A DNA stretch of 50,097 nucleotides from Gammaproteobacteria bacterium. GTDB taxonomy: Bacteria > Gemmatimonadota > Gemmatimonadetes > Longimicrobiales > Gaopeijiaceae. The first letter of the stretch is position 1, and every line of letters starts with the position of its first letter. The notes under the pieces were generated by a model that was not told the DNA's origin, searched no databases, and was given only the letters and a program-made list of their open reading frames with translations. Made by a program: the position numbers and the translations under genes. The stretch covers positions 1-50,097 of the forward strand of contig VXNP01000100.1 in assembly GCA_009840525.1 (NCBI GenBank), given 5' to 3'. This document shows, in pieces, positions 14,601-17,829 of this stretch.

Positions 14601-15470
14601 TTGCCCCTCCCGCAGCCAGGCGCCCGCTCGGGCAGCGAACCCGTCCGCCGGGTGACCGAGACGACTCGGCATGGGCGGATTCCCCTGCGCGTGCACCCCG
14701 AGTGGGCCCGAGCCTTTCCGTGGGTCGTTCAGGGGACCACGGTGCGCGCCGGCGCCGACGCCGACTTCGGACTGTTCACGGGCGGGCCCGCGGGCGAGGT
14801 GATGAAGCGGTGGGAATCTCTGGCGGAGGACACGGGATGCGGCAGCATGGTGCACGCCCGCCAGGTCCACGGGCGCGCGGTCACCCTGCACGAGGCGACC
14901 CCGCCAGGTCTCATGCTGGCCCCGCCCTGCGACGGGCACGCCACGCGGCGGGCCGGCACGCTGCTCGCGGTCTCCGTGGCCGACTGCGTGCCCGTCTTCG
15001 TGGTCGCGCCCCGCGTCCGGGCCGTGATGCTGCTGCACGCGGGCTGGCGGGGGGTCGCGGGCGGCATCCTGGAAGCGGGCCTCGCGATGCTGGAACGGGA
15101 CTTCAGAACCCCTGCGCGTGAGGCCCACATACACATGGGACCAGCCATCTGCGGGCGCTGCTACGAGGTGGGCCGGGAAGTACACGAGGCGCTGGGGCTG
15201 CCGCGGCCGGCTTCTCCCGGCCAGCCGGTCGATCTGAGGCGCGTGCTGGTCGACCGCGCCCTCGCCGCCGGCGCCGATGCCGCACACCTGACGACCTCCT
15301 CGTTTTGCACCCGGTGCGCGGACGCGCCATTCTTCTCGCACAGAGGCGGGGACGCCGGGCGCCAGATCGCGGTGCTGGGCATCACTCCGGACGACTTCGG
15401 ATCCCCGGGAGGGGAATGGCTCGACGACCATCGCCGGGAGCGGGACCGGCAGCCCGTGGAAGACCGCTAG
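14601..15470 (+). CDS. pgeF: Peptidoglycan editing factor PgeF / YfiH-type laccase-domain protein
   Basis: A 289-residue member of the DUF152/YfiH family, described as removing mis-incorporated L-Ser from muropeptides and, in homologues, acting on purine nucleosides. The metal site residues are visible as H90 (RQVHG), C129 (VADCVPV) and H146 (LLHAGWRG). The family segment GPAICGRCYEVG follows. The start is TTG with GGAGAG a few bases upstream; the first 30 residues are variable, so a later start is possible. The stop shares one base with the GTG of the next gene, so pgeF heads a coupled group that includes the UGA-containing OsmC gene. Confidence 0.88.
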   Translation: MPLPQPGARSGSEPVRRVTETTRHGRIPLRVHPEWARAFPWVVQGTTVRAGADADFGLFTGGPAGEVMKRWESLAEDTGCGSMVHARQVHGRAVTLHEATPPGLMLAPPCDGHATRRAGTLLAVSVADCVPVFVVAPRVRAVMLLHAGWRGVAGGILEAGLAMLERDFRTPAREAHIHMGPAICGRCYEVGREVHEALGLPRPASPGQPVDLRRVLVDRALAAGADAAHLTTSSFCTRCADAPFFSHRGGDAGRQIAVLGITPDDFGSPGGEWLDDHRRERDRQPVEDR

Positions 15471-15757
15471 TGGACCGCTCCTTGCAGGACTTGCGCGCGG
15501 ACCCCTCGGTGGGACTCTGCTCGGTGTGCGCGCACAGCCGGGTGACGGGAAACCGGCGAGGCTCCATCTTCTGGCTCTGCCGGCTCTCGGCCGAGGATGC
15601 GCGCTTCCGGCGCTACCCGCGCCTCCCGGTGGCGCGCTGCTTGGGATTCGAGCACGCCGCGGCCGGACGGATGGACGAGGACCGCAAGGACCAGGAGCCA
15701 CAGGCTCCAGACAGCGCAGACCAGCAGCGAAACCGAACCGGGAGAACCGAAGAATGA
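15470..15757 (+). CDS. Small four-cysteine protein, conserved type, function unknown
   Basis: A 95-residue protein starting at a GTG that overlaps the pgeF stop (TAGTG) and ending in an ATGA overlap with the next gene. Its core is CSVC (C17, C20), then GSIFWLC (C37), then RFRRYPRLPVARC (C57). This spacing resembles a widespread family of small proteins with a treble-clef or zinc-ribbon-like fold, recalled from pattern only. The charged C-terminal 35 residues look disordered. The tight coupling on both sides and the conserved cysteines support a real gene. A metal-binding or redox role beside a thiol peroxidase-like protein is plausible but not shown. Confidence 0.75.
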   Translation: MDRSLQDLRADPSVGLCSVCAHSRVTGNRRGSIFWLCRLSAEDARFRRYPRLPVARCLGFEHAAAGRMDEDRKDQEPQAPDSADQQRNRTGRTEE

Positions 15758-16227
15758 GCGAACCCTTCTACGTGTCCAAAGTGGAATTCGAGAAAGTGGC
15801 CGGCGCGCGCAGGCGCGGCCGGCTTCCCGCCGGAGCCACGGTCGAACTCGGCGTCCACGGGCCGGTCAAGAGCCACTACCGGCTCGATGCCGAACCGGAT
15901 CAGCCGCTCGCCGTGGACTACGTCGTCGCCGCCGCGGGCGGGTGACTGCTCGGAACTCTCAACGGCGCACTGGAGGTGCGCGGGATCAGCCTCACCCCGG
16001 ACCAGATCAGCGCCCGGGCCGAAGGCTTCAACGAGATGGCGGGCAGGCTGCCGGTGCTCAAGCGCATTCACGTTCACTACCGGCTCTCGATCCCCGAGGG
16101 GTCGCGCGCGCCCACCGACCGGGCCCTCGCCAGCCATGTCGACAAGTGCCCCACGGCCGCAAGCCTGCGGGACGCCATCGACATCACCTGGAGCGCGGAC
16201 ATCGTCGAGCACGCCGCCGACGCGTGA
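15754..16227 (+). CDS. OsmC-family protein, probable selenoprotein (in-frame UGA at codon 64)
   Basis: The 157-residue reading frame has one internal TGA (15943-15945) and is otherwise continuous. The N-terminal 63 residues end in VDYVVAAAGG. After the TGA the frame resumes at once with LLGTLNGALEVRG, and the C-terminal half carries SHVDKCP with C132, the second conserved OsmC cysteine. In OsmC-family peroxidases the first catalytic cysteine occupies exactly the position of this UGA (AAxGGC). With the hairpin at 15965-15981, this points to selenocysteine at position 64 and a Sec/Cys pair reducing hydroperoxides in the cytoplasm. The start overlaps the previous stop. A conventional gene caller would split it into a 63-residue ORF and an 83-residue fragment beginning at 15976. 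The alternative is a nonsense-mutated pseudogene. Confidence 0.85.
15965..15981 (+). promoter_or_regulatory. Bacterial SECIS-like hairpin
   Basis: GCGCAC and GUGCGC form a perfect 6-bp stem with a 5-base loop UGGAG. The loop starts 25 bases after the UGA codon and has G as its second base. This fits the published bacterial SECIS pattern of a short stem, a small apical loop with G among the first two bases, and roughly 16-37 bases from UGA to loop. It lies inside the coding frame, as bacterial SECIS elements do. Confidence 0.75.
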
Positions 16228-16260: not shown

Positions 16261-17829
16261 GTGCCTGAGCTGCTGGCACAGACGATCATCGGCCTCTCCC
16301 TCGCGGTGCTGGTCCTGCTCCTGCCGTTCGCCGCCCACCGGACGTATCTGCTGCTGCTCAGCCGCCGTCCGCCCCCGGAGCTGCCGCGCAGGTGGTCCGG
16401 CCGTTTGCCGCCGGTCACCGTCCAGCTTCCCCTGTACAACGAGGCTCCGGTCGCCCGCAGGGTCATCGACGCCGCGTGCTCGCTCGACTATCCGGCGCGC
16501 GCCCTCGAGATCCAGGTGCTGGACGACTCCACCGACGAGACCGTGGAGCTCGTTGCCCGGCGGGTGGCGTGGTGGCGGGCGCGGGGCGTGAACGTGTGCC
16601 ACATCCGCCGGCGGGAGCGCTCGGGCTTCAAGGCGGGCGCCCTGGCCGCGGGCGTGCGCCGCGCCCAGGGCGAGTTCCTGCTCGTGCTGGACTCGGATTT
16701 CGTGCCCGAGCCGGATCTCGTCAGGAAGCTGCTGCCGCCCTTCCGGCTGGCCCGGGTGGGGATGGTGCAGGCCCGCTGGGATCATCTCAACGAAGACGCC
16801 AACTGGCTCACCCGCGCCCAGAGCCTCCTTCTCGACGGGCACTTCTTCTTCGAGCACGGCGGACGCTACCGCGGAGGGCTCTTCTTCAACTTCAATGGCA
16901 CCGCGGGCATGTGGCGCCGCGAATGCCTCGAGGACGCGGGAGGATGGCAGGCCGACACCCTCACCGAGGACCTCGACATCAGCTACCGCGCGCAGATGCG
17001 GGGATGGCGCTTCGTCTTCCTCGAGGACATCGGCGTTCCCGCGGAGCTTCCGGACCAGACCGGTGCCTTCGAGATCCAGCAGCGGCGGTGGTCCCAGGGG
17101 GGGATTCAGACGGCGCGCAAGCTCCTCCCGGAACTGCTGCGCGGGCCCTGGCCGCTCTCGGTGAAGAAGGAGGCGGTGATCCATCTGTGCGGGCACATCG
17201 CCTACCCGCTCACGCTGCTCCTCGGCCTCCTCATCTATCCCTCCGCCCTGGCCCGGCGCGCGCTCGGCGGGGAGGAGTTCCTCTTCATCGACCTGGTCGT
17301 CTTCTTCCTGGCCACCATTCCCTTCGTCATCTACTACGCGGCCGCGGGCCGAAAGCGGAACCGCCCCTGGGGCGACCTGGTGCCCTCGGTGGCCGTCACC
17401 CTGGCCACGGGCGTCGGGTTGACGGCGCCGGCGACACGGGCGGTGCTGCGCGGCCTGGCGGGCCGCAGGGACAGCTTCGCGCGAACGCCCAAGAAGGGCA
17501 GCGGCGGCATGGTTCGCGAACGCCCGGGAAGCCAGACGCCGGACACCCTGTTCAAACTGGCCATGGCGATGGTGATGAGCCTCTTCGTGGGCGCCGCGAT
17601 GCAGGCTCGGCTATACGCCTCGATCCCGTTCCTGATGCTCTTCGCCGTGGGCTACTGGAGCCTGGGGGTCGGCGGCCTGAAGCGCTTCGGACCGGGGCCG
17701 CGCATCCCACAGCAGCAGCGCGTAGAAGGGCAGCCAGAGGAGGAGAACCGTCCAGAGGGGCCTCGGCCACTCGCCGGTCTCCAGGTACGGACCCAGACCC
17801 AGGTACGTGACGAATGCGAGGCCGCTTAG
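16261..17829 (+). CDS. Membrane glycosyltransferase, GT2 (cellulose synthase-like)
   Basis: A 522-residue processive-type glycosyltransferase. An N-terminal membrane helix (about 6-28) is followed by a GT-A catalytic domain with LDDST (about 86), LDSDF (about 143), TEDLD (about 235) and QQRRW (about 274), the D-D-D-QxxRW set. C-terminal membrane helices lie at about 310-380 and 435-475. This form resembles bacterial beta-glycan or glucomannan synthases of the CESA superfamily. GTG start with GAGGGA 5 bases upstream. The last 73 codons overlap the 3' end of the opposite-strand GT-C gene, and the tail after about residue 475 is hydrophilic and probably not essential. The sugar substrate is not determinable. 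Confidence 0.86.
   Translation: MPELLAQTIIGLSLAVLVLLLPFAAHRTYLLLLSRRPPPELPRRWSGRLPPVTVQLPLYNEAPVARRVIDAACSLDYPARALEIQVLDDSTDETVELVARRVAWWRARGVNVCHIRRRERSGFKAGALAAGVRRAQGEFLLVLDSDFVPEPDLVRKLLPPFRLARVGMVQARWDHLNEDANWLTRAQSLLLDGHFFFEHGGRYRGGLFFNFNGTAGMWRRECLEDAGGWQADTLTEDLDISYRAQMRGWRFVFLEDIGVPAELPDQTGAFEIQQRRWSQGGIQTARKLLPELLRGPWPLSVKKEAVIHLCGHIAYPLTLLLGLLIYPSALARRALGGEEFLFIDLVVFFLATIPFVIYYAAAGRKRNRPWGDLVPSVAVTLATGVGLTAPATRAVLRGLAGRRDSFARTPKKGSGGMVRERPGSQTPDTLFKLAMAMVMSLFVGAAMQARLYASIPFLMLFAVGYWSLGVGGLKRFGPGPRIPQQQRVEGQPEEENRPEGPRPLAGLQVRTQTQVRDECEAA

Follow-up and report, generated by a model that had tools for sequence, protein, structure and literature searches.

An OsmC-family gene with an in-frame UGA, probably a selenoprotein gene of a separate subfamily widespread in Gemmatimonadota

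The window considered here, a stretch of 50,097 nucleotides of Gemmatimonadota DNA, carries a reading frame in which 63 codons are followed by a TGA, and this in turn by 93 further codons and the frame's own TGA stop. The question raised by this locus is whether the internal TGA marks a decaying gene or is decoded as selenocysteine (Sec) in an intact protein. The second answer is strongly favored by the analyses described here, and the probability that the frame encodes an OsmC-family selenoprotein with Sec at residue 64 is estimated from the sequence data at about 95%. The features discussed are collected in Table 1.

Table 1. Features of the locus and of related genes in the host genome (positions without a prefix are those of the window)
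Feature	Position	Strand	Remark
YfiH/laccase-like gene (PF02578)	14601..15470	+	upstream of OsmC gene
Small Cys-rich protein, 95 aa	15470..15757	+	between laccase-like gene and OsmC gene
Putative OsmC-family selenoprotein gene	15754..16227	+	157 residues, predicted Sec at 64; own stop TGA 16225-16227
In-frame UGA, predicted Sec codon 64	15943..15945	+	site of N-terminal (peroxidatic) Cys of OsmC/Ohr
Predicted bacterial SECIS hairpin GCGCAC-UGGAG-GUGCGC	15965..15981	+	apical loop UGGAG begins 25 nt past UGA
Codon of C132, conserved second (resolving) Cys in KCP	16147..16149	+	
Family 2 glycosyltransferase	16261..17829	+	downstream of OsmC gene
Paralogue L063	G000:C33:21628-22089		same UGA and hairpin
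Paralogue L064	G000:C25:3858-4292		same UGA and hairpin
L171, FdhA with in-frame TGA	G000:C25:27461-29464		contig also bears one OsmC-Sec paralogue

A sequence-only reading of this DNA had pointed to a lone TGA at codon 64 of an otherwise open OsmC frame, located exactly at the first catalytic Cys, with the second Cys (C132, in the motif KCP) kept, and had warned that standard annotation would misreport the gene as two fragments. All of these points are borne out. Standard translation does yield two fragments, and when the TGA is read as a residue, the product gives a single match to the OsmC domain (PF02566) that runs across the TGA, scoring 44.2 bits against a cut-off of 27.5. When the family profile was compared with solved OsmC proteins, the first Cys of Thermus thermophilus OsmC (1ukk) was paired with residue 64 and the second with C132, such that the in-frame UGA occupies a position where homologous proteins have a catalytic Cys. 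An AlphaFold model, built from seven sequences of the protein's own family with Cys at 64, adopts the OsmC fold with a pLDDT of 83, a low-confidence loop at residues 47-50 limiting its detail, and its top structure matches are E. coli OsmC along with other OsmC and OsmC-like structures. With a score above the gathering threshold, the OsmC fold and both catalytic Cys positions filled, the protein is placed in the OsmC/Ohr family.

That standard translation gives two fragments is also what would be expected if the TGA were a nonsense mutation or a sequencing error and the OsmC gene were undergoing decay, but the distribution of the codon among relatives makes this explanation extremely improbable. 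Homologues are present in 50 of 98 related genomes, and the TGA lies at the same codon in all 50, its position being conserved among homologues down to ~35% identity. Among the 77 matches listed from these 50 genomes, the TGA is present in all but one, a fragment of 32 residues, and when 80 loci were parsed, it lay at the identical codon in each of them. The frame is open on either side of the TGA, and across 28 diverse members the invariant residues include G33, H35, D55, residue 64, G67 and T68, as well as R76, Y109, R123, H128, the second Cys C132 and P133. The hairpin downstream of the TGA, described below, is conserved and covarying, which likewise speaks against decay. The earlier judgment that a random nonsense mutation would rarely strike this codon agrees with the retention of the TGA there in all 50 gene-bearing genomes, and the decay in relatives that would have spoken against a selenoprotein was looked for, with the finding that relatives keep the frame open.

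The host genome itself contains two more copies of the gene, both with the TGA; identity to the window protein is 60% for L063 and 35% for L064. A homologue 58% identical to the window protein (L052, G014:C1) is found in another genome, G014, and a second, more diverged group of OsmC-Sec proteins is common across the phylum.

Downstream of the UGA lies a hairpin with the family consensus GCGC[A/G]C-UGGAG-G[U/C]GCGC, the six pairs of which are formed in all 60 distinct sequences compared. Standard pairs occupy each of the 360 pair cells, and 30 of these cells are altered on both sides: the pair at positions 27 and 35 is G-C in 31 sequences, A-U in 28 and G-U in one, while that at positions 26 and 36 is C-G in 58 and U-A in two. 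The covariation score exceeds those of all 500 shuffles and of all slid versions, and the same hairpin is recovered unprompted by RNAalifold. Moreover, synonymous codons are frozen at +7 to +13 (GGC 70/70, CTG 70/70, GTG 36/36, CGC 64/70), and the Ala codon at +8 is only GCA or GCG, tracking its pairing partner; the codons adjoining this locked stretch are freer in their synonymous choice. The strongest gene-wide folding excess, with a z of -7.7 against synonymous-codon shuffles, is located at the hairpin, and the runner-up among the 21 folding windows, at the far 5' end, reaches -4.3.

According to the published rule for bacterial SECIS elements, an apical loop of 3-9 nt with a G in its first two positions and a stem of 4-16 bp should be situated 16-37 nt from the UGA, with an MFE of at most -7.5 kcal/mol (PMC13188914). 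The hairpin agrees with this rule throughout, having the loop UGGAG, a stem of 6-7 bp, a spacing of 25 nt and an MFE of -9.7 to -11.3 kcal/mol, and the energy limit of -7.5 kcal/mol is respected in all 70 distinct genes. When the 52 nt following the UGA were folded from the window sequence alone, no signal was obtained (z -0.03); since the conserved hairpin of 17-19 nt by itself gave a z of -3.5, folding the whole 52-nt stretch of a single sequence is considered unsuitable as a test. A scan of the window with Rfam at gathering thresholds gave no match, and the same strong hairpin was not seen in two diverged homologues from the second phylum sampled (L195 and L206). In two other homologues (L134 and L135), the UGA is kept and GGAGCCCTGGAAGCCAGAGG replaces the usual hairpin sequence, possibly as a differently built SECIS.

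The sequence-only reading had also proposed a genome search for selA, selB, selD and tRNA-Sec, and all four are present. In the host genome (3.99 Mb in 155 contigs, 98% complete), a tRNA-Sec with anticodon UCA scores 68.3 bits (gathering score 47), selA 520 bits, selD 308 bits, and selB, which runs off a contig edge and has the SelB-specific beta-barrel domain, 308 bits. The set of SelA, SelB, SelD and tRNA-Sec is therefore represented in the host, with selB cut by the contig edge. In addition, the host encodes a formate dehydrogenase alpha chain (FdhA, 726 bits) with one in-frame TGA, which stands in CSRA-U-HAPTVAGL, the classic FdhA Sec site (RUHAPTVAGL-type). Because the machinery is present together with a TGA at this Sec site, Sec decoding appears to be used in the host independently of the OsmC gene.

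These data also bear on the proposal that, in this lineage, TGA has come to be read as an ordinary amino acid, through reassignment or leakiness, for instance as Trp or Gly rather than Sec. An altered code would likewise leave the frame open through the TGA, but the gene's own stop is a TGA, as is that of many homologues (others end in TAG or TAA), the internal TGA coincides in every case with a catalytic Cys position, and the genome holds a full Sec system with the FdhA TGA at a known Sec site; this proposal can be given almost no credence. The UGA at the catalytic position, a putative SECIS hairpin and the decoding machinery can all be read from the DNA itself, and the initial suggestion of a probable selenoprotein has gained support from the alignment with Cys, the Sec machinery, the intact relatives and the covarying hairpin.

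At the level of genomes, selA accompanies the gene in 48 of the 50 that carry it, and 17 of the 48 gene-less genomes have selA (Fisher p = 5e-11, a value that overstates independence because the genomes are related). The two gene-bearing genomes in which selA was not found are both draft assemblies, and in each of them tRNA-Sec scores above the cut-off, as it does in the Acidobacteria-labelled genome that carries the homologue L062.

With regard to its surroundings, the OsmC gene is preceded by a small Cys-rich gene, whose product has no Pfam match. The stop codon of this gene and the start codon of the OsmC gene share the sequence ATGA, an overlap that suggests translational coupling of the two. 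The laccase-like gene also precedes the OsmC gene in many relatives; two of these loci, L036 and L044, come from a different family of the same taxonomic order. The downstream glycosyltransferase is kept within the genus and is also found at several loci of other genera.

How the product would be made and what it may do can be proposed from these features and from the characterized members of the family. SelB carrying Sec-tRNA(UCA) would recognize the hairpin just past UGA-64, and we infer that Sec is inserted at residue 64 in place of termination. In Ohr/OsmC proteins, the N-terminal Cys is peroxidatic and the C-terminal Cys resolving, and Ohr is reduced by lipoylated proteins (PMC4069020). 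By analogy, the selenolate at 64 would attack a hydroperoxide, possibly an organic one, to give a selenenic acid, which C132 would resolve as an Se-S bond to be reopened by a dithiol reductant. The product probably works as such an OsmC/Ohr-type peroxidase, given that U64 and C132 fill both OsmC/Ohr catalytic positions in every aligned member and fit a peroxidatic/resolving pair.

Also part of the Ohr/OsmC family is YhfA, a branch for which peroxidase activity is not known (PMC4069020). The protein might accordingly contain Sec and yet be a YhfA-like or other OsmC-fold protein of redox or of sulfur/selenium transfer, as the subfamily is far from characterized OsmC, Ohr and YhfA (the best solved relative scores 27.7 bits) and is marked by conserved residues peculiar to it (G33, H35, D55, R123 and H128). 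To our knowledge, no function has been assigned to any OsmC-like selenoprotein, which leaves further room for such a role. In view of the two catalytic positions, a non-peroxidase function is regarded as unlikely, though far from negligible.

The Sec-only character of the subfamily was examined in 395 genomes from across the phylum and 396 from the phylum of the Acidobacteria-labelled genome, about 790 in all. Among the matches listed or followed up in these two phyla, all full-length ones of at least 140 bits have the TGA, and generic Cys OsmC proteins reach at most 45 bits in the same sample. No Cys member of the subfamily was seen among the matches listed from the approximately 790 genomes. 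Weak matches taken up as Cys candidates turned out to be generic Cys OsmC or Ohr proteins, in which the reported TGA was only the terminal stop; a rare Cys member might nevertheless lie among the middle-ranking matches. Such an all-Sec pattern is unusual, as Cys homologues exist for almost every selenoprotein (PMC13188914). It is conceivable that this is a distinct and ancient OsmC subfamily, obligately dependent on Sec, which, instead of reducing hydroperoxides in the ordinary way, may catalyze a reaction beyond the reach of Cys; the proposal is tentative, with the odds judged to lean somewhat against it. If there is indeed no Cys orthologue in the phyla where the subfamily has spread, it would evade the discovery methods that rely on Cys/Sec pairs.

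The implications reach beyond this locus. A sizeable set of bacteria, most of them uncultured, appears to maintain as many as three OsmC-type selenoproteins per genome, the genes of which would be split or truncated by standard gene calling, and a subfamily for which no Cys counterpart was seen in the sample from the two phyla is well suited to testing why Sec is kept.

OsmC-like selenoproteins as a kind have been known since 2005, when three sequences from the Sargasso Sea with the motif UxxT were described, followed by five in 2008 (PMC1088965; PMC2398784), and this selenoprotein from the Sargasso Sea and GOS data also figures in a 2022 and a 2026 review (PMC13188914). A literature search combining selenoproteins and Gemmatimonadota returned nothing relevant. 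In the models tested here, the subfamily is without a name. One of these, NCBIfam NF041052 (OsmC_like_Se, 'OsmC-related (seleno)protein'), has weak similarity to the window protein over residues 51-145, and the score of 14.1 bits, where 95 are required, places the protein outside that family; both host paralogues and L062 score 15.7 to 17.8 bits, and a search of the host genome with this model gave no match at E <= 0.001. Its matches in relatives are almost all other, stop-free OsmC-like proteins, and the sole match over the cut-off among the 98 relatives comes from one domain of L158 (G051:C234:11099-12175), a longer protein of 415 residues with two tandem OsmC-like stretches and no in-frame TGA.

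In comparison with the characterized OsmC and Ohr of E. coli and Thermus, the window protein has the fold and the two catalytic positions in common, but it has a predicted Sec where these have the N-terminal Cys, its identity to them is ~22% or less in structural alignments, and its N-terminal half is distinct. With the OsmC-like selenoprotein described from the Sargasso Sea and GOS data, it shares the OsmC domain (PF02566/COG1765), one UGA predicted to encode Sec, and a putative bacterial SECIS. The two are set apart by the published description of the motif, which is UxxT in the Sargasso Sea sequences, whereas the window gene has U-L-L-G-T and the subfamily U[LM]LGT in its close group and UxxGT in general (G at +3, T at +4). 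On account of this motif and of the 14.1 bits against 95, the window protein is assigned to a separate subfamily of a known kind. The earlier type comprises 3 to 5 environmental sequences, with Cys homologues reported, while the subfamily described here is widespread in Gemmatimonadota and occurs in far more than 100 genomes.
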